Assembly: GCA_963922205.1 (NCBI GenBank)
Contig: CAWUHX010000042.1
Span: 1,426,001-1,490,000 of the forward strand
Origin: Romanomermis culicivorax
Lineage: Eukaryota; Nematoda; Enoplea; Mermithida; Mermithidae
Reading direction: 5' to 3'
Length of the DNA: 64,000 bases
The position numbers and the translations under genes were made by a program. Positions 51,260-64,000 of this stretch are shown here, in pieces; the stretch's first letter is position 1; each line of letters begins with the position of its first letter. The notes under the pieces were generated by a model. The model was given only the letters and a program-made list of their open reading frames with translations, was not told the origin of the DNA and ran no database searches.

Positions 51260-54200
51260 ATGCCAATAAGACGGGGTATTTTCACCATATCGACTTGCTT
51301 CAACTTCCACAATATATTACGGTACTTTTGCTGTTGTTCCTTTTTGCTAATTATATTCTTAATTACTTTCACGTCGTTTCAACCGTCCGACCACGGAGAA
51401 TTAATCGACAATTTTCGAAGGCTTTACCCGAATCTACACAAAAATTCACTGAACGATGATGCAGCCAAAAAATGTCACTTCCCCGACCTGAATCCTTGGG
51501 ACCCTAGCATTTCAGATTATATCAAAAACGGCGGTGATTTGTCGTGCAAAATGTTACAGTACGATCTGACGTTTATCAACGAATCGAATTTTCTCATTTT
51601 GAACAGAACGGCCTTGACATTATCCGGTTTTGGAAAATCGAGCATTGATTGCCAGTATCGATGTTTCAACAGTCAAGACGATGTGTCAATTTCAACAAGC
51701 GAAATTTGGCACAATTTTGAGTGGGAAACCCCATTGTCGAATGAATGCGAGTTTTTAGAAGTCGATTGTTCCAGGAAAATTTCCTCTTTGTTAAGCGTTT
51801 ATTCCAATATTCATTTTCGAATGATAGCGAAACCGTCCAATACTGTAACGATGAATGACCAAAACCAAGAAAGACCAAACGTGCTACTTTTCGTGATAGA
51901 TTCTCAGTCCAGATCGAACGTCGAACGATATTTGCCAAAAATGTCGAAAATTTTGAACGATAGCGATTATATGTCGGTTAGAATGGACGGATTTGTTAAA
52001 ATTGGAGACAATAGTTTTCCCAATGCTATCGCTTTTTTGACTGGTGAGAAATACTAAAAAACGTTGATAGGTGGGAACTTCGGATAAATTTTCTAAAATT
52101 CGGAATCGAATCAATTTTACCTGGATATGGTTCATGCGATGATATGAGAATGTAACTTCAATAATACAGTTTTGCATTGTTTCCTTTTCAGTAATTAGTA
52201 CAAATATTTATAAGAGTTCATGGACTGTTTAATCTCTACCTGAAGCCTGCAAAATGCTGGCTGTGCACCTGACATAAATAATTTTTCGAGTAAAAATATG
52301 AAAATTATAATGCGATTCCAATATTCAAAGACTTCATTTTCGTGAAGTCCGAGCTTACAATCTAAAAGATTAATCTCATTTCATAGTACCCATGTAAATC
52401 TATTACCGATATACTCATGTGTCTAAGATGATGAAGATGGTTTTAGGCATTCACTGTTAACAATCATGGCCTATGAAAAATCCGTTGTATTTGTGAAAAA
52501 TCTGCTAAATGTTTAAAAGTGAATTCGGCGTGATTGATACTTATCTTCACTTCCACACTACATCCGCCCTTAGGAAACTACCTTCCAGGCAAAAGATCCT
52601 GCGTCTCCGGTTACCCCGACGAATTGCCTTGCTACATGGGCGACAAATATTTTGACGATTGGCCTTTAATTTGGCACAATTTCAGCATGGCCGGTTATAG
52701 GACTTATTACGCCGAAGATCACCCTGATTTTAATCTCTTCCAATACACGTACAACGGTTTCAGGAAAAAGCCCGTCGATCATTACTTCAGGCCCTATTGG
52801 TTAAAAGTTTGGCAAACTTTTTTGCATCGCCGCAGTTCGCATTTGTGCTACGGTAATACACCCAAACATTTGATCCAACTGAACTATTTGGAGAGATTTT
52901 TCAAAGCTTATCAAAAGTGAGTGACGTTTGCATACTGTTATTTTATTATGCTAATCCTCAATTTGGCCGTCGTTAAATAGCTCTCAAAATAAACTGACGT
53001 GATTAGCAGTTCCATGGCAACGTGTGTGCTGATATTGATCTTTCACATCAGTTCACAATTGAACTGTCAAATCTGAAATGATGTTGACACGCATTTGCGC
53101 AGCAGTTTTCGGGAATAAATGCTGACCTTCCCATGATGAACTGTACTCCATTTTTTGCAAATGAGACTGAACACAAAAAGATGTTTAGGCAGGGAAAAAG
53201 GGCAGAAAATCTAAATTTGCGGACACTTTTTCGCAATTTGGCTGTAGCAGATGTACCAGCAACTTGAGAGAAAAATACGTGCACTGCGAATTTTTTATCT
53301 GCAGAAGCATTCCTCCACGTTTATTTAAAATAAATGGAGTATAGTGGATGTTGTTTGGAGTAACGAAACTGAAGTGCAAAACTTCGCTTTTTTGTTATTT
53401 TCCGTGAAACCGCACAAAACTGTAAAATTAGCTCACTCTACTCGATGGGACAGTTGCAGCCATTGAAGTGACGTTTCTTTATGATCAGATAAAAAAATGA
53501 ATGTTTTCGATCTCACGACGATACCAGACAGTGATTCTCTTATGAGGTTTTCCAGAGTAAAGAGTGATGTTCTCACCATCTTTATATAGCTGTGTTATTA
53601 AAAATGAGCAAACCCTCTTTCCTTTGCTTTCCTGTCAATTCGAATAAGTTCGTTTGGCAATTTTACATGCGACAGTTTTGATGGAAACTTTGAATTTCAT
53701 GAGCACATGTTCAACAGATTTAAAAAGCAGCCAATTGCATTTTTCCTGTATTTACAGTTATCTATTTGTTCCAATATTTATATCGTGTTAGATTTTCTAC
53801 TGATGACAATATATACTACGAAGCCTAATACGGCAAACTGCATCAAGAATTGTGGTACTGAAGAGAAACGACGATCCATTTTGGGACACCCTGTAGAAAT
53901 ATAATTTACTTTATGCAAATTCCCATTCGAAATTGAATTCCACGATAAAGACTTTCATTGTTTTTGATGTGTGTTATGCCACTGATCTCAATGACTCTCC
54001 GACATCGCATCCATTTTTTGAGAATTTTATAAAATATTTTCGTTGGAAAATTTATTAGTTCAATAAATCCTACCTACATGTAGAACATGTCTCACTTTTC
54101 AATTTTTCGCGTTCAATTCAGAAATATTCTAATATTGAATGACAGATAATTTTGTCTGTTCTGAGAGTTTCAAAATCTCCCATTGGAAGCTGGAAACCGC

Positions 54201-56293
54201 AATAAGTACCAATTTTCACGTGCGTTAGTCTAGGGTCGAAATGTTGTTGGTCTAGAGTAGGCCCTGATATATTTCACCGGCCGGCGCCGGTCGGCGACGG
54301 ACGGCGCCGGATGAAATATTTTTAAACCGGCGCCAGTTGCAAATTTTCGCTGCAATACTTCATCCGGTGTCGTACCTACTGCAAACCTACGGCCATAAAA
54401 CCCCAAGATGCATTTTTTGCATCACAATTCATATGTTATAACATGAGCGACGGCTAGCGACGGTTCAGAAATTCCGATGAAGACGAAGTATAGCAGCTCG
54501 AAACCCAGCGCCGGCTACGAGCTGCTATACTTCTAACAGTGACGGCCGGCGCCGGCCGGCCGTTCCAAGTATAGCAGCCTAGGCTGTAATCAGAATCTCG
54601 ACGCATAGTTATTCATTTGCAGCAATGAAAAATTTTTCAACATGAAGAATTTATTTTTAAAAAATACTTTGTTTTACGCTCGTACAATTAAATTGGGCAA
54701 TTCTGCTGTGAGATCATACCTGTAGATGGCGGTGATTAGGGAGGAGGGTTCCTCCAATATATTCAATCGTATAGACCATTGTACTTCCCAGCCGGCCAGA
54801 AATCGACGAAAAATACCAATTTCTTGGTCGAAAATGACGTTTCCGTGGCAAAAATCAATCGAAAAGCCAGAAATTTTTGAAATAATGCTCAGTATCAAGT
54901 TTAAAGCGAAAACACATTGGTTATGGGCACGTTTTGCTAATTTTTTATTGAAAAAACACATTTTGTAACCATTTACTCTCACCCTTACAGTTTTGATAGT
55001 CAGCTATTCCTTCCCCTTAAAAATGGCCTTTACCCTCGGGAGCAATTCGCTGGAGCTCTTACAGGTATGTGCAAGATAGGCATAAATCAGTATCTTTTCC
55101 TCCGATTAACAATGGAAGAATGGCGCACAAGGCTGTTCACTGTAGAGTAAAAAAGTTACTGTAGCTGCATGGAATTTAAAACAAAAAATACAGTAGGTAG
55201 ATGAAAGCTACACAAATCAAAATCTGAAGGCTCAAAATAAACATGATTTTTGAAAGGTTTCTTTGGATTATCTTGTAGCTTTGCTTGTTGAAGAGAACCT
55301 TTTCTGTTATTGATTCCGATGATGACTTATCACATCTCTAATAATTGTTTTCTATTCATTTTGAGGCAAAATCACAGTCCAGTTTTTGCCCTAAATTGGT
55401 TGACAGAATTAGGCCACGATTGGTTGGGTCAAATTTCTCTGGGTGATGAAGATTTCGAACAATTTTTTCAACGTATGAAAACCATGCTGCTCAAAAATAC
55501 TATAATTTTTACGTTCAGTGATCACGGACATCGTTTTGATTCTATAAGGAAAACTTTGATCGGCCGTTTAGAAGAACGTATGCCATATTTATCGATTTCA
55601 TTACCGAAAAAATTTCGGACCAAATTTCCCAATTTGAGAAGAAATTTATTACTAAATTCGAAACGTTTGATAAGTCCGTTCGATATATACGCCACTTTGA
55701 TAGATATTTTGAATTTAAATTTCGAAAGTGCGGCTCCGAAAGATAACTCTTTGTTCGGAAATTTCGGGAAAAGTTTATTTAGACCAGTGTCGGAAAATCG
55801 TCAATGTACCGAAGCCGGCATTCCCCAAGAATATTGCGTTTGTGAACGGGAAATTTCGATTCCGGAACCATATAACGATCGACTTGTAATTTCAGCGGCA
55901 AAACATTTGATCAACTACCTCAACGACCAACTTTTAGCTAGTTATGCAAATATTTGCGCTAAATTAACATTGAAGCGTATAAATAACGCTAACATTTTTG
56001 CCGACGGATTTAACATCGAAAATATGAGGCGAAAGGAGAGGTCGATTTTTCCTTATTTTAATAAACTTTTCGACGGGAAAAGCTTGGAGCCGAGAACGGC
56101 AAATTTTCGAATAACGATCGAAAGTGATCCAAGCGGGGCGATTTTCGAAGCACTTTTTCTATATTCGTTATTGGAAGATACATTCAAACTGATCGGAGAT
56201 GTTAATCGGATCAATATGTATGGGAATCAATCGATTTGCATCAATTCACCTTTGTTGAGGAAATATTGTTTTTGTACAGATAAAATTTTATAA
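51260..56293 (+). CDS. DUF229 (PF02995) alkaline-phosphatase/sulfatase-fold membrane protein, 3 exons, 684 aa
   Basis: Exons 51260-52043, 52574-52916 and 55366-56293 join in phase (1, 2) to 685 codons including TAA. DUF229 proteins are metazoan, expanded in nematodes and insects, and belong to the alkaline phosphatase/sulfatase superfamily; substrates are mostly unknown. A short basic N-terminus precedes a single membrane segment at about 20-38 (CCCSFLLIIFLITF), giving a type II topology with an extracellular or luminal catalytic domain. RPNVLLFVIDSQSRSN (about 205-220) holds the metal-binding Asp214 and a following Ser215, the likely nucleophile position. DNSFPNAIAFLTG, WPLIWHNFSMAGYRTYYAED and FRPYW follow. 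SDHGHRFDSIR (427-437) holds Asp428 and His429 plus His431, typical metal ligands. Cysteine pairs such as YCVCE and YCFCTDK lie near the C-terminus. The 2.4 kb second intron holds no exon I can support. Confidence 0.93.
54260..54579. mobile_element. PIF/Harbinger-like palindromic MITE (CCGGCGCCGG-rich)
   Basis: The left end GGCCCTGATATATTTCACCG and the right end (inverted: GGCTGCTATACTTGG) are imperfect inverted repeats, each followed inward by CCGGCCGGCGCCGG palindromes. The interior has a second hairpin with GAAGTATAGCAGCTCG against CGAGCTGCTATACTTC. It shares the AAGTATAGCAGCT motif with the element at 26592-26838. It lies in intron 2 of the DUF229 gene. The target duplication is unclear (TA). 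Confidence 0.55.
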
Positions 56294-56637: not shown

Positions 56638-57532
56638 TGTAACGACCAGATTTGTGTGAGGTACTTTACTTCTAACCAATCGGTCGATACGGCAGGGAAA
56701 AAGGGCACGGGCGGTACAATACGGGGCGATAATATACCGCTTTACAATACTCGACGGCTGCTTTAGACGTCGATACGACAACGATAACGATAAACGCGGC
56801 GAGTACACACGGCTTAATTGCTTCCAAATAAAAAATGAGACTCGCTCTCAAAACAATGCTTGCAAATACGGGGCGCGGGGTCGAAAAATTGAACGATACA
56901 AGAATGATCAAATCACGCTTTGCTTCTTCTTTTATACGGCGATTTTGGCCACTCCCTGGGCGTCACGGGAGGTCGAGCTTCTGTCCATCTTCTTCCGCCA
57001 ATCGTCGTTTCCTGCCACGCTTTTTATGCTTACCTAGTTACGCCTCTCTAATGCTTTCCTGGTACTGTATGCTTTTTGTGCTTCACTTGCTTCTTACGGT
57101 GGGCTTAGCCACACCTCTGTGCTTCTGTGCATGCTTCCTGTATCCGTTTCTCTGTATACACATGTTTTGTGGGGCCGCTGCTACCATTACACTTGAGACT
57201 ACTGTCTGGCGGGGCTTCTACGTATTTTACTGTGTGCAGGTGTTGTTTACGATTTTTTATGGGGGATTACAGTAGCTGTGGAATGTGTAGTTTAGTGTAG
57301 GTTCTAGGGGAACAGCTGCCGTTTGTGCAAATTAATTAGGGCATCTTAATTGGGCTACCAGGGTGTGAACGGATCAGAATAAAGTACTTCACGTAATTTT
57401 GTAGGAATGTTTGGGTGTGAATCCCAGACACCCTTGAGACTATAAAATGTGAAAATAAAATAATATCTAATAAATGTATATCACATACAGTATGCTACAT
57501 ATTTACAGTACTGCTTTAGCAGGTACGTTACA
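56638..57532 (-). repeat. 3' LTR of the Ty3/gypsy element, 895 bp
   Basis: Bounded by TGTAACG and its inverted form CGTTACA, the 7-bp terminal inverted repeat expected of an LTR. A purine tract abuts the internal side, on the minus strand. A TATA box lies inside. The 5' LTR and the primer-binding site are outside the window, so target duplication and LTR identity (hence age) cannot be assessed here. Plus-strand reading frames across the LTR are chance. Confidence 0.8.
56930..56937 (-). promoter_or_regulatory. TATA box in the LTR
   Basis: TATAAAAG on the minus strand, about 595 bases into the LTR from its U3 end. If used, transcription would start near 56900, leaving about 600 bp of U3 and about 260 bp of R plus U5. 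No exact AATAAA was found in the R/U5 part. Confidence 0.5.
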
Positions 57533-57563: not shown

Positions 57564-60500
57564 TCAAGGCTTTCGAGGTTGAGGAGGGGTGGCGGTAGAT
57601 TCGTTAGCTGCTTTCCAAGGGTAGAAAGGGGTTGTCTCGTTTACATGCACCGTAAATGTAATATTCTTATGGGGGTGTTTAAGTGTAATGTTGGGGTACA
57701 TGAAACTTGTAACTGTATAGGGCCCGTTTTGGCGAGGGAGGAATTTCGGAGTCAACCCTTGTTTACACGAATGATTTTTATAAAGAATAAGATCACCTGC
57801 CTTGTAATGTATGTTCTGAGCATGCTTGTTATACTGACGGGTATAGTGGGCTTGGGCTTTTTGCAGACTTTTCTGCACGGTTGAGAGTGCTTCTGTAAAA
57901 TGCGATTTTACACGAAGGGCGTAATCGTCTAGATCAACCATGTAGGACATGGGGAAAAAGTTTAAGGCTGCGTCTGACAGCAGATTAGCTTGCCTACCAT
58001 GGAGTAATTCAAATGGGGGATACGAAGTGCTATCATTTTTATGAATGTTGATTGAAAAAACGGCGTACGGGAGATAAGTATCCCAATCAGTGTGATTTGA
58101 ATTGATGTACATGCGGATACGGGTGGCTAAGGTTTGGTTGCAACGCTCAACTTCCCCATTGGCAATGGGATGATATGAGGTAGTGTGAATTTTCTGAGTA
58201 TTGCATAAACTGATGATCCGTGAAAAGAGATCGGATACAAAATCGGAGCCACGATCACAATGGATGATTTTTGGGGACCCATGACGGCAAACAATTTTGG
58301 TTACGAATAGCTTGGCAATAGTGGCTGCAGTGATGTCAGGGGTCGGGAATGCCTCTACATACTTTGTGAAATAGTCGATGAAAACGACAATGAATCGGTT
58401 GCCGTCTTCAGTGAGGGGTAACGGTCCCATGCAATCAACACCAACTCTATCAAATGGGCCAGTCGGCTGAATTGGTACCAAATTTGCATGAACCTTGTGT
58501 CAGAGGGCTTTCTGTGTCTGGCATGGGTGACGAGTTTTGCAGTACCGTTTGATATCACGGCTCATTTGGGGCCAAAAATATTTCTGTCTGAGCAAGTGTA
58601 AAGTTTTTCGGGCTGCAAAATGACCTGTGAATTTGCTGTCATGATGAGAGGCGATGAGATGCTGGACTTGCGACTTGGGAATGTATAGTTTTGCCTGTTT
58701 GTCGACTATACGGAAGAGAATGTTTTGATGCACTGAGAATTTGATCAGAGTAAGGGGGTGTTTTTGGGCGATTTTTGCTAAAATACTTTTGGCAGTTGGA
58801 TCAGTGTGTTGGAGTTCGGCAAAATTTTTTTGTTGCTCTTCTTGTTCTTCTTGTCTTCTTCTTCTTCTTGTTCTTGCTTCAGCTTCCAAAACCGAATTGA
58901 TAGTGGATATTTCGGGGCGGGTTTCGAGTTGCTCAATGTCAAAGGATTGCTTTGCTGTCTGTGAGGGGAATCGAGAAACAGCATCTGCGTTGCGGTTAGC
59001 AGTGCCTTTTTTAGGTCGAATGTCGAGTTGAATACCTGAGAGGGCTTATCCCCAACGGGCAATGCGAGGGGATGGGTTTTCCTTCTGTAGAACTGCTTGA
59101 ACTGCTGTATGGTCAGTGTGTACAATAACATGTTGCTGGAAAAGATAGGGGCGAAAATACTTGACAAATTCGACTACTGCAAGGGTTTCCAACTCAGTGA
59201 TTGGGTAGTTGCGTTCTGCGGGTTTCAATGTGCGGCTCCCAAAAGCAATGGGGCGATCCTGACCTTTACTGTCTAGCTGACTGAGAATGGCGCCGATTCC
59301 GAGTTTCGAGGCGTCAGTTTGCAAAATAAATGGTTTTGTGAAATCGGGGTGCTGCAGTATTGGGGCATGAATGAGTAATTCTTTTAGCTTAGTGAATGCA
59401 TTTTGCTGTTCAGGGCCCCAGGAAAATTCTGAGTTCTTTTTGAGTAGCGATGTGAGTGGGCTAGAAACTTGAGAGCAATTTGGGATGAATCTGCGATAAT
59501 ATGAGGGTAGGCCAAGGAATGACTTAACTTCTTTTGAGCTTTTGGGTGTGGGTATGTCATAGATGGCCTGTACCTTATGGGGATCTGGTGAAATGCCTTG
59601 CTGAGAAATGACGTGGCCTAAGTATTGAACTTGGGGCTGGCAGAATTTGCATTTTTGTATGTTTAGCTTAAGGCCTGCTTGTGAGAATCGGGCAAGAATA
59701 GTGTCTAAACGTTCCAGCATTTGGGCATGGGAGTCTGCAAATACCAAAACATCGTCGAGATACACAAGGCATGTGTTCCATTGTAGACCCGAAAGAATAA
59801 CATCCATTAACCTTTGGAATGTGGCTGGGGCATTGGTGAGTCCAAAGGGGAGGTAATTGAATTGATACTGGCCGGCTGAGCAATTAAAGGCCGTTTTTTC
59901 TCTGTCTGCTTGTGCTATGGGAATGGAATAGTATGCATTGGATTGGTCAAGGGACGTAAAATATTTCATTCCACGCAGGGTGTCTAGAATTTCGTCTATA
60001 CGGGGCAAGGGGTATGTATCTTTTTTGGTTACTTTATTGAGGCCTCTAAAATCAATGCATAAACGATGGCCTCCGTCTTTTTTGGGGACTAAAACTGTAT
60101 TGGTACACCATGGAGAATTGCTTTGGCTTATGACACCTGCTGCTGCGAGTTGCTCAACTTCTGCTTGTATGATTTGCTTTTCTTTTGGGGAAGTCCGATA
60201 AAGTTGTTTACGTACGGGTTGGGAGCCATTGGTGTCAATTGCATGTGAAACAAGGGTGGTTCTACCTACGTCCATTTTGGATTTAGCATATAATGTAGGA
60301 TACTTCGATAGGGCGCATAGGAGTTGCATTTTCTCAGTTTCTGTGAGGTCACTGGAGGTTAAATTGACATTTTCTTTTAACCATGTGAATGTATCAAAAC
60401 GGTTGGGCTGGTTTTGCGTGGAGGGGGTTACGCTAGCGGGGGCGTTTTGTTTTGCAATGTAACATGAGACTGTACCAATGCATGTTCCAGGGTAAAGAAT

Positions 60501-61330
60501 TTGGGCTGTTTCTTGTGTGTTTAGAACGGATATGCGTATGCGACTGTTTTGGTTTTCAGAGATACATGCTGCGAAATGGACTTTGGGGTTCTGCTTGGGT
60601 TTCGGAGTGAATTCGAGCTGTTTAACTTGTAGGTACGATTTGGGCAAGGGGACAGTAAATTCGGTTACTGTACGGGGTGGTAATTCTAATTTCTCGTCTA
60701 AATAAGTTCCACCACGAGTTGAAAGAGGGCTATATTCTAGGCCGTCACAGGGTAATATGACATTGCCAAATTTGACCTGAGATTTTTGATTGTTGATAGT
60801 GTATTCCGAAAATCGACTGAGAAAGTTTTTGCCTAGAAGGATGTCTGCTGTGCAATCTTTTTGGACATGGACCATGATTGTTTCCTGGATTGTTTGGGCT
60901 GTCACTGTGACAAAAGTGGTCCCTACAAAGTGAATCGGAAGATTATTTGCTGCTTTTGCTTGGACTAGCGGAGGTTTCATGTCTAACTGTAGGATTTGAG
61001 CGATTCGGGAATCAATGAGTGAGTAAACTGCACCAGTGTCAATCATGCCTTTTGTCATTAATTTGCCGTTAAGTGTGATTGGAATATGAGGGGTATGTTT
61101 CTCAGGTACATTTTGGGGTGGCCTATTTGATGCAGATTGGTGAATTTGATTAATGAGTTTGATTGCAGGAGTTCGAGGGGTATCAATATCGACAAGGACG
61201 TATTTCTGCTGCGTTTGTGCCCCACGACGATTTGCTAGTTCTAAGAGAGCATGGCCGAATGATGGGGGTATGGTCTCATGTAAATATCTGTTGTTTGATG
61301 GTATTTCGTATGCATGTTCATGTGTGACCT
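57564..61330 (-). pseudogene. pol: pol: aspartic protease, RT, RNase H, integrase (two in-frame stops)
   Basis: This part of the env-pol frame begins after the envelope membrane segment. The protease has the DTGA active-site loop at about 61040-61029. RT shows the fingers-palm landmarks VPKKDGG and LPFGL, then the catalytic YLDD at about 59762-59751. RNase H follows with QTDASKLG and HTDH. A Glu/Arg/Gln-rich linker encoded by TTC-type repeats (about 58845-58880) separates it from integrase. Integrase has a His-His zinc region whose Cys pair is altered (CKTRHPC), then a DDE core with VGVDCMG, CDRGSDF and NGEVERC. TAA at 59046-59048 breaks the RNase H end and TGA at 58500-58502 breaks the zinc-core junction. 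The rest is collinear with active families. The C-terminal domain is short, ending at 57564. Confidence 0.88.
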
Positions 61331-63152
61331 GATGCTTTGGAGAGGGGAAATACTTTCGAAGAACGAGAAACAAATAAAAGACGCCTGCAATAACTACAGT
61401 GATAACGGCTAGATTGATAATGATTTGCAGGGGTCCTTTGAGTAAATTGTTTAATCCGTCCGTGAGACTTTGGGTGGTACCAGTAATTACATGTTCTATG
61501 CCTTGACCGGTGCCAGAGAGTGTATTCCCGAGTGCTTGGCCAGTGCCTGAGATCATGTTGTAAACTGTATCGGAATTGAGAGACATTTGGGCGGTGTAAT
61601 TGACGAGTTTTTGGACAATGTTTTCGAGTGTGTGAGTTTTGTAAATGTATTGTTTCAAAAAGAGTAAGTTGGTTGAAATAGTTGCAAGTTGATCATGAAA
61701 AATGGCGGGTGTATTAAAATGAAAAAGGGAGAAATTTTAGTTCCAGACGATTTCTAACAGTAAATTTGTGACATGCGGGGATCCTGTTTCACTTACCCAT
61801 GTATTATTCTGTTTGTAAAGGGCTACATGCATGTGATGGCAGTCAACGGTTTGTGAGAAAGGGGTCAAATCGTTGCCTCCTGGGTTTGAAAACATGAGTT
61901 CGGTTCCTACGAGAACGGGCAAAAGTTTGTAGCATGTTTGGTTGATTTTATGATTGTAAAAGACTTTGGATGCGTTTACCTGCTTGCAGGGCCAGACTGT
62001 GAGGGCTTCTCCTGTAAATTCTGCTATGATGTCAATTCTCTGTAGGAATGCACGGGCTCCAAGGGTTGCATCAAGACGCAAAATTTGCCATATGAGATCA
62101 AGGTGACGCTGTGCCTGTCTGCATAATTCATTCCATACATTTTTGAAATTTTGAATTTCGAATTCCTGGATTTTGTCTGCTAGATAGTTTAGTTTTGCAT
62201 TAATGGGTTCAAAATCGTCAAAATCGTATAGTGTAGTATGAGTTTCGTTGGTTTTTGGGGTTAAAAATGCGTTACGATGTGGGGTGCTTTTGTCTAATTG
62301 TACGATAATGCCTTGTTCGGTTAGAATGCTGTCTTGGATTTCTGGGCAATTGGGGTTCGGAAAAACTGTATTTTTAACCGAGAATGCACTTTGTAGCTCT
62401 TCTATTATCATGTGTGTTTGCGTGAGTTTGATGGGATGTGTATTTTTGTATTCGAAAGGGCATAAGTTTTCAAATGCTGTTTCATTCCAGATAATGGATC
62501 CCTCGGCTGTAACACAATGACCTGATGTCGGTTAGCATGACCCCAGGTCACCTAATGTACCTGTCATAGATTTTCCATTCCAAGATGCTATTTGTCCTAT
62601 TTCTATGATGACGTTAGTGACTGAGGTACAATGGTCTGTACAACACCATGTGTATTCTATGCTTAGGGAGTTGTTTGTTGACCAAAATCCTGGTTGGGTT
62701 TCGTATAATTTTTGACCGTTGTGTTCTTTGTCTATAACGACTGCCTTACAAACATGTGGGGTTAGATTTTGCATTTCGGTTTGGTCGAAGACAATACCTT
62801 TTGATCCAAAAAATCCTGTATTAGTACAAATTTTGCGTTTGCGAACACTGCATTTGTATGCGTCTGTAATGTGGGGCTTAGTGGAGGGGATATAGATTTT
62901 TCCGAGTGTCTGTACGGGTTTGTCTACTGTGGAAGGGGGCATGCATGATACAAGTTTCAGTATGCTGACTGAGTGACCGCTCAATGAAGTTCCACACATC
63001 TGAAATTGGGCACTACACAATGTGGGGATTATTATGCAAAGAAAAATACGAAACATCGGCCAATAGAATGTTTTAGTGGAGGCGTATGTTTTCGTTGTGG
63101 CTGTATGTTTTCGTTGTGGCCGGTTTGGTGTTGGGGCTTTTGGTGTTATCAT
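61331..63152 (-). pseudogene. Envelope-like glycoprotein region located upstream of protease (two in-frame stops)
   Basis: The frame opens with ATG at 63152, which overlaps the gag stop in ATGA. A signal-peptide-like segment (FRIFLCIIIPTLCSA) lies about 35 residues in. A cysteine-rich ectodomain with several NxS/T sites follows, carrying a GFFGSKG motif and a CC..C cluster, then a Gly/Thr-rich stalk with SGTGQ repeats, and a membrane segment of about 25 residues (about 61433-61359) ending in basic residues. Reading continues without a stop into the protease. TAA at 62532-62534 and at 61737-61739 interrupts the ectodomain. The cysteine spacing is compatible with class III-type glycoproteins of mononega/chu-like viruses captured by other retroelements, but this is inference. 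The function would be membrane fusion or entry in an intact relative. Confidence 0.7.
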
Positions 63153-64000
63153 TTTGCGATTTTGAGCTGGGGGGGTGGCTGGTTTGAAATCCGAACATTC
63201 TGTAAAACTTTAGAAGTTGAGTTATGGGATGGGGTTTGGACTTGCTTACTTATGGGGGTCGGTAGAAGTGTTTGGCGGGGGCGGAATTGGTAGGGTTCGG
63301 GGGTCAGGCCATGTAGAAGGGATAACAAGTTGCGGCCTGTTTTCGACGGGGTTTCGGGGGCGGTGGTTGGCGTAGTGTCTTGCTTGCAGGGGATCTTGTA
63401 GCCTACGGGGATGGTGGGCGGCGATTTTTCGATTTTTGCGGCTTCAGGCGTGGGGGGTGGTGACATGGCGCACCAATCGGGTACATCCAGGTCGAGGACG
63501 TATTCGTCACTACGGCCGTGGGTGTTGGGCATAATAGTTCCTAAAGTAGTCTGAGGGCCGTTAGTTATGGCGGGTAATTTTGAGTAAAATGCGGGATCGT
63601 CAATGTCCATGAGGGGTTGGGGTTGCCTGTACTCAATGCAATTTTGAATATTACGACTCTGCTGATTTGGACAATACCTGCTTGTATGACCTCTCTGCTT
63701 GCATATGAAACATTGAAAATTGGAGTAGGGTTTTGAAAGGCAGTTATCTGATATATGTCCTGTTTGGGAGCAGTGGATGCATCGGCTTTTACAATCACGT
63801 GTACTGTGATTATTACGGAAACAGATTTCACATGATTTTCGGGTGCCTACTGATTTACAATTACGAGCTACGTGTCCGATTTGTCCACACTGGAAGCATG
63901 TGGGTTGCCTGGGGGTGGTATTGTTCCTGTAAGCATTATTCCTGCTGAAAGTATTGTTACTGAAATTGTTGTAGCTACTCTGTTGTGGGGGTTGAGGTTT
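63149..64000 (-). CDS. gag: gag C-terminus with four CCHC zinc knuckles (partial)
   Basis: Open from the window edge (64000) to TGA at 63149-63151. Four consecutive CX2CX4HX4C knuckles are readable: CFQCGQIGHVARNC, CEICFRNNHSTRDC, CIHCSQTGHISDNC and CFICKQRGHTSRYC (about 63900-63690). These are nucleocapsid-type RNA-binding motifs; most Ty3/gypsy gags have one or two, so four is many. A Pro/Thr-rich tail of about 160 residues follows and ends with the stop codon that overlaps the next ATG. Matrix and capsid portions lie outside the window. No stops or frameshifts are seen in this part. Confidence 0.85.
   Translation of the reverse strand, partial: KPQPPQQSSYNNFSNNTFSRNNAYRNNTTPRQPTCFQCGQIGHVARNCKSVGTRKSCEICFRNNHSTRDCKSRCIHCSQTGHISDNCLSKPYSNFQCFICKQRGHTSRYCPNQQSRNIQNCIEYRQPQPLMDIDDPAFYSKLPAITNGPQTTLGTIMPNTHGRSDEYVLDLDVPDWCAMSPPPTPEAAKIEKSPPTIPVGYKIPCKQDTTPTTAPETPSKTGRNLLSLLHGLTPEPYQFRPRQTLLPTPISKQVQTPSHNSTSKVLQNVRISNQPPPQLKIAK

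Follow-up and report, generated by a model that had tools for sequence, protein, structure and literature searches.

A predicted class III-type fusogen gene between gag and pol in Ty3/gypsy elements of the nematode Romanomermis culicivorax

Where in a retroelement may an envelope gene lie, and what would it mean for the enzymes if it lay ahead of them? The question is raised by a stretch of 64,000 nucleotides (nt) from the nematode Romanomermis culicivorax (assembly GCA_963922205.1, contig CAWUHX010000042.1, positions 1,426,001 to 1,490,000; hereafter the window), whose minus strand carries, from 64000 down to 56638, most of one long terminal repeat (LTR) retroelement, the 5′ end of which is past the window end. 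In this copy, an envelope-like gene (env) spans 61.3-63.1 kb, upstream of protease, reverse transcriptase (RT), RNase H and integrase. This order and the fusion of env to pol are real, family-wide and old. We favour, with reasonable though far from complete confidence, the reading that elements of an old Ty3/gypsy clade have a class III-type fusogen gene built into a single Gag-Env-Pol frame as an internal module, with a membrane-threaded processing scheme. Sequence comparison establishes the gene order, the shared frame, a low ratio of nonsynonymous to synonymous substitution (dN/dS) in env, the presence in seven lineages of a signal-like segment and an anchor, and tree congruence for six, while the mechanism is plausible.

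Layout of the window element

The sequence identifies the window element as a decayed copy of a Ty3/gypsy (Metaviridae) LTR element. It has the pol order protease-RT-RNase H-integrase with a Ty3-type RT, the closest solved structure to its RT/RNase H being Ty3 RT (4ol8, E 2.7e-91), and TG..CA LTRs with a short target duplication (CTAG, 4 bp). The 3′ LTR (TGTAAC...GTTACA, 56638..57532, minus strand like all parts of the element) aligns over 895 columns, at 97.4% identity, with the 5′ LTR, which lies beyond the window, at the window-equivalent positions 65071-65962.

Along the coding strand, the 3′ part of gag (63149..64000, continuing past the window end), with CCHC zinc knuckles (PF00098, three stretches) and a proline-rich tail, is followed by the gag/env junction (63095..63210), which holds an acceptor-like TTTTACAG at 63207-63200 and an ATGA at 63152-63149. 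Next come the N-terminal part of env (62535..63094), where a signal-like segment (~63056-63009) and the start of the ectodomain are predicted and where a family copy aligns with relatives, and the core of the putative ectodomain (61740..62531), a class III-type fusogen by its match to PF24664 (Monjiviricetes_fusion, E 2.9e-18), with Glycoprotein_B under its cut-off (E 0.002). The predicted stalk, the membrane anchor (~61425-61355), also found in a natural relative within the family, and the linker into protease occupy 61241..61736 in the pol frame. Then follow aspartic protease, RT and RNase H (59049..61240; PF13975, PF00078, PF17919/PF17917), the integrase zinc-binding domain (58503..59045; PF17921, E 3.1e-19) and the integrase core with its C-terminal part (57567..58499; PF00665, E 7.4e-9).

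All pieces from the junction to the integrase share one frame on the minus strand (62535-63209, the env-like 61740-62531, 59049-61736, 58503-59045 and the integrase piece 57567-58499), which in this copy is broken by four stops, at 62532, 61737, 59046 and 58500; the copy is also frame-shifted at the gag-env joint. The inter-LTR stretch has a capacity of ~2512 codons. As the integrase stop ends at 57564 and the LTR begins only 31 nt further, an env downstream of pol would not fit into the window copy. An Rfam scan of the window gave 0 matches. As a side observation, strand asymmetry is marked over 58001-64000 (GC skew 0.26-0.29, AT skew -0.10 to -0.21), the coding strand being A+C-rich.

Gene order in related copies and lineages

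The 359-Mb assembly that contains the window has 50 loci scoring above the cut-off for the N-terminal domain of cuticle collagens, a hallmark of nematodes, against 0 in 14 control genomes. It holds many further copies of the element. With an RT probe, all 40 matches scored, of 1045 candidates, have at least 95% identity, and with an env probe all 145 copies scored, of 3245 candidates, have at least 96% identity to the window piece. Among these 145, to which all frame and stop counts refer, 144 env pieces are free of internal stops and in 77 copies env sits in an open frame of 2450 codons or more, a length that we took as sufficient for gag, env and pol together; the commonest length is 2486 codons (26 copies). 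Intact copies, where the arrangement put forward in the initial annotation of this DNA can be checked, keep the gag-env-pol order. Pieces were fetched for the 20 copies heading the RT list, the window's own among them; gag tail, env and protease follow one another in that order in 20/20 cases, with a deletion of ~0.7 kb in two, and they share a single frame in 10 of the 19 other copies. A second set, of 11 loci from the env probe, has gag, env and protease in a common frame in nine (L035 of this set is the same copy as L015). Consequently, the Env-Pol polyprotein proposed at first stands in part: env is indeed fused to pol, but the frame of the family is Gag-Env-Pol, gag being in frame in those ten of 19 copies. 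Two of the fetched copies (L019 and L020, at 73.7-86 kb of G000:C268) are nearly identical, lie 7.7 kb apart and have the same 0.7-kb gag-env deletion; they are probably a tandem duplication.

In ten copies, the LTR pairs differ at 0 or 1 position over 396-904 aligned nt (the LTR end was unreached in eight of the ten), and these near-identical pairs indicate that the family was recently active. Nine of these ten copies, like 39 of the 40 junctions discussed below, come from those whose frames reach 2450 codons or more, and both sets are completed by one copy with a frame of 2164 codons. Target duplications (GACT, AAAC) were found in those two of ten other copies in which the alignment reached both LTR ends. 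The family is thus a recently active, high-copy Ty3/gypsy element of an old clade, as far as can be judged from these copies. Mean pairwise dN/dS over 20 copies is 0.23 for the N-terminal part of env (envN), 0.11 for its core (envM), 0.17 for the anchor and linker, 0.12 for protease, 0.17 for the gag knuckles and 0.36 for the gag tail, values that blend selection with post-insertion drift and include two near-identical copies. The constraint on the env core is as strict as that on protease.

The same order is found far outside the family. A protein from an NCBI contig, P0001, is homologous to env (92% of the query aligned, at 33% identity) and, used as a probe in the same genome, gave 61 scored matches of 3921 candidates, at 32-39% identity. 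The eight loci fetched from these carry gag knuckles, env, protease and RT on one strand and in one frame, with a protease-RT 39-44% identical to that of the window element. Additionally, the flanks of thirteen further env loci were read, two of the window family and eleven others; in all eleven others env is followed by protease or protease-RT, in one frame in ten. Outside the window family, env therefore precedes protease in 19/19 loci and shares its frame in 18/19, a frameshifted locus (L131) being the sole exception. These 19 loci are not all independent, and we recognise seven lineages, named A-G, A being that of the window. The distance covered is considerable: at locus C538, identity to the window element falls to 26% for protease and 30-31% for protease-RT.

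Gag knuckles were found upstream of env in nine of the twelve non-family loci whose upstream side was read. No CCHC motif was detected in the 1.2 kb upstream of env in lineage F (C94, C85 and C69; Pfam was run on one of the three), so that gag before env there is indicated by the long open frame alone. Trees of env and of protease-RT have the same splits for six lineages, which fits one old capture followed by joint descent. Relatives from JGI and NCBI sources (P0005-P0007) also keep env before protease; for instance, P0006 (2604 aa, JGI contig) has a PNMA-like gag, CCHC, fusogen, protease, RT, RNase H and integrase in this order in a single protein, the fusogen stretch being residues 1012-1406, matching profile positions 251-638 of 653. 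A protein search with region 1-540 of the 896-aa piece scored 7998 candidates, none of them at E <= 0.001, and viral contig, genome contig and phage collections yielded no relatives. In the copies read, all env genes precede protease and none lies downstream of integrase, although no genome search was aimed at elements of the latter kind.

Some peculiarities of single lineages may be mentioned here. In lineage F (L110 1-1400, L112, L114), an extra aspartic-protease-like stretch with a DTG motif lies between the env anchor and the usual protease; in the one scanned (L110) it matches gag-asp_proteas (E 4.8e-7) and, under the cut-off, RVP (E 0.0017), and this lineage may carry two proteases. In lineage E (L106 / P0004), the protease motif is DCGA in place of DTGA. 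The env relative P0003 comes from a 1383-base contig filed as a gammaproteobacterial metagenome-assembled genome, and is probably misbinned animal DNA.

The env product and its possible processing

Profile matches point to a class III-type fusogen. PF24664 is matched at E <= 0.001 by 12/12 env members and lies above its curated cut-off wherever a score was given (the window piece, the L038 piece, P0001-P0003 and P0005-P0007); at the same threshold, the other Pfam families among the twelve are Borna virus G (five members) and Glycoprotein_B (four), and no member matches the baculovirus F-like (class I) env family. Against solved structures, a profile of four env members finds herpesvirus gB (best E 4.5e-6), and one of twelve members gives gB with a best whole-sequence E of 4.3e-6 and a best single stretch of 1.3e-4; 18 of the 19 structures matched by the latter at E up to 1 are gB, counting those named ORF8, BALF4 or GP110, which we take to be gB. 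Single env sequences had no match in the PDB, and a Pfam scan of the env piece 62535-63209 matched 0 families. The N-terminal part of env from a natural window-family copy can be aligned with P0001 and P0002; P0003 is without the signal segment.

Across the twelve members, 47 env columns are invariant, 12 of them cysteines, and each env has 6-11 glycosylation sequons across lineages. A hydrophobic scan of seven lineages found two segments in each: the first env cysteine comes directly after one of them, and the other lies ahead of protease. All seven thus appear to have the N-terminal signal and C-terminal anchor of a class III fusogen. The description from which this work started, of an envelope-like gene bounded by a signal and an anchor, which follows gag and continues in frame into pol, has held up in each of these respects: the signal-like segment and anchor lie at the positions given above, env is fusogen-like by sequence in the PF24664 and gB profiles, and order and frame recur in the family and beyond it.

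The simplest topology for such a chain would place the ectodomain in the lumen and both Gag and Pol in the cytosol. In this scheme, the internal signal-like segment would send the ectodomain into the secretory pathway, and the anchor before protease would stop transfer, so that both the upstream Gag and the downstream protease-RT-RNase H-integrase would remain cytosolic. The cut by signal peptidase would fall on the lumenal side, and the element's own protease would release Pol after the anchor. Pol would then be carried to the site of budding behind a membrane-anchored Env, in a chain that has Gag at its opposite end, and not solely as a Gag-Pol fusion; that is, we infer that Pol may be packaged through the membrane. 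A spliced RNA beginning just before the signal segment could add Env-Pol without Gag. The internal position of env suggests, in any case, an unusual route to an infectious particle. More tentatively, and with rather less confidence than an even chance would imply, it may be proposed that an old, diverse Ty3-type clade replaced the Gag-Pol strategy by a membrane-threaded Gag-Env-Pol, with the enzymes loaded as the cytosolic tail of the fusogen, in convergence with the flavivirus type, so that loss of Env would break Pol.

Several points weigh against a Gag-Env-Pol chain of this kind. Frames are shorter than 2450 codons in 68 of the 145 scored copies, and nine of the 19 other fetched copies have frame shifts, seven within gag or at the gag-env joint and two inside env; we read both as decay. 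In the window family, the fusogen match is limited to about the middle third of the ectodomain. Nor do all related env genes seem to lie before protease: the N-terminus of P0001 has a match to DUF5641 under the cut-off (E 0.015), presumably a domain of the BEL/Pao pol C-terminus, and this weak match makes it probable that the P0001 env follows integrase. It seems, then, that the env of P0001 stands after a BEL/Pao pol, in the order opposite to that of the window element, which suggests env exchange between BEL/Pao and Ty3 elements. Furthermore, an element making as much Env and Pol as Gag would pay a high price, unless splicing or cleavage corrected the balance. Lastly, acceptor-like sites occur within 200 nt upstream of the signal in 7/7 lineages (nine observed; the remainder of these loci would predict 1.94), and the chain may not be the main source of Env.

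Alternative explanations and known systems

These splice-like sites imply that Env-Pol could also arise from spliced RNA, and the strongest alternative goes further: Env-Pol would come mainly from spliced RNA (cis- or leader-trans-spliced), with a 3′ exon starting just before the signal, unspliced RNA serving mainly for Gag and as genome, and Pol still lying behind Env. We give this a chance slightly short of even. The junction of the window family, as read in 40 copies (L041-L080), falls into two subfamilies, WPMFC (23/40) and WPLYC (17/40), of which the first but not the second offers a Met as a possible start of the signal segment, and TTTTACAG is kept in 38/40. Of 22 Met-type copies, 21 have the in-frame ATG as the first one after this site, a further point in favour of splicing and against the chain as main source, but none of the 16 Leu-type copies that keep it has an in-frame ATG afterwards. 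The start codon of the signal segment is indeed not conserved: a Met between gag tail and signal segment is missing in 17/40 window-family junctions, and lineages C, D and F each have one or more loci where no Met precedes the signal segment in the part that was read. In 6/6 leaders examined, a donor-like GTAAGA is located 112-114 nt past the primer-binding site, although a stricter donor pattern has 0 sites in the same six. The acceptor pattern and region were chosen after the window site had been seen, with a general splice consensus as guide; an earlier scan over 300 nt could anchor five of 12 window-family pieces, four of them with a site, and the later scans were made on other pieces. A search for the SL1 RNA family gave 0 matches, and so did its controls. 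As for precedent, PMC12992720 describes the env of Metaviridae as a third open reading frame (ORF), typically made from spliced RNA, with its start taken from an upstream exon in some clades. By contrast, the junction stretch 63095..63210 can be read in frame from gag into env in many copies, and an open gag-to-env frame would be needless under pure splicing. Whichever route is used, polyprotein or splicing, Pol stays behind Env, given that open copies have no stop between anchor and protease.

A second alternative, which we judge unlikely, is that env no longer serves infection and is retained as a membrane anchor, or as a scaffold in the assembly, of particles that are intracellular or carried by vesicles. 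The numerous copies spread inside one genome would fit this, as would the lack of a furin-type RX[KR]R site in six of the seven env lineages, but class III proteins are not known to need such a site. Moreover, the ectodomain is conserved across lineages, with its 12 invariant cysteines and 6-11 sequons, and the low dN/dS of envM falls in the very part that matches fusogens.

Two further explanations fail outright. A unique chimera, nested insertion or assembly error at ~61.3 or 63.15 kb, a breakpoint that the initial annotation had named as a risk, found no support beyond the decay of the window copy itself and is refuted by the order kept in 20/20 family copies, 19/19 loci outside it and P0005-P0007. 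The ATGA overlap at 63149-63152 exists in the window copy and might be taken as a stop-start (re-initiation) signal for Env-Pol, but it is private to that copy, the aligned place being ACGA in all 16 alignable copies of the 19 others fetched, and gag and env share a frame in 10/19 other copies and 9/11 further loci, so that re-initiation is refuted for the family and the ATG at 63152, first annotated as the env start and overlapping the gag stop, was an accident of this copy.

How does the Gag-Env-Pol reading compare with known elements? Errantiviruses and other env-bearing Ty3-gypsy elements (gypsy, ZAM) also have a Ty3/gypsy pol, LTRs and an env, but theirs is a separate ORF downstream of pol, whereas in the family described here env is internal and shares a frame with gag and pol. 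Belpaoviruses with an env (Atlas, Tas, Cer7, Anakin) have a BEL/Pao pol and Env last, in contrast to the Ty3-type pol and the Env before protease found here. Atlas, a BEL/Pao element of hookworm, is nearest in one respect: according to PMC9094657, it makes one polyprotein of 2828 residues with Env fused at the end of Gag-Pol. It thus resembles the window family in having Env inside a single polyprotein, but its order is Gag-Pol-Env. In the literature, the env of Anakin (mosquito Pao elements) is chuvirus-derived (PMC7642597), herpesvirus-like envs are given for Tas (PMC9094657) and Cer-7 (PMC7642597), and type III fusion glycoproteins are reported in some mosquito gypsy elements (PMC13172572). 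Chuvirus/Jingchuvirales glycoproteins and herpesvirus gB share the PF24664 / gB profile with the env described here, but they are stand-alone virus glycoproteins; PMC10084718 saw no clear case of Gypsy elements having captured such glycoproteins. For Cer1 of Caenorhabditis elegans, an env between gag and pol is not described in the portions of the literature at hand.

Flavivirus-type polyproteins have capsid, internal signal, glycoprotein, protease and polymerase in one frame. The likeness to the present elements would be one of layout only, not of homology. F-type and gB-type envelopes have reportedly been found in Ty3 elements across animals by Chary and Hayashi in 2025 (eLife 108449). In the literature searched, which did not cover that survey, we found no published precedent for an env between gag and protease in one frame, and the novelty of this order is accordingly provisional.

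In endogenous elements, env is often the first gene to be lost (PMC9094657). With env inside the enzyme frame, a frame break or stop in env would also remove Pol. This coupling could explain both the many open env copies and the agreement of env and pol trees. The arrangement also offers an alternative, open to testing, to the rule of packaging retroviral enzymes via Gag-Pol, and in it class III-type fusogens stand as permanent components of a nematode Ty3 lineage.

Beyond the element, the window contains a split host gene of a DUF229 sulfatase-like family (51260-56290, plus strand), which ends ~350 nt short of the 3′ LTR.

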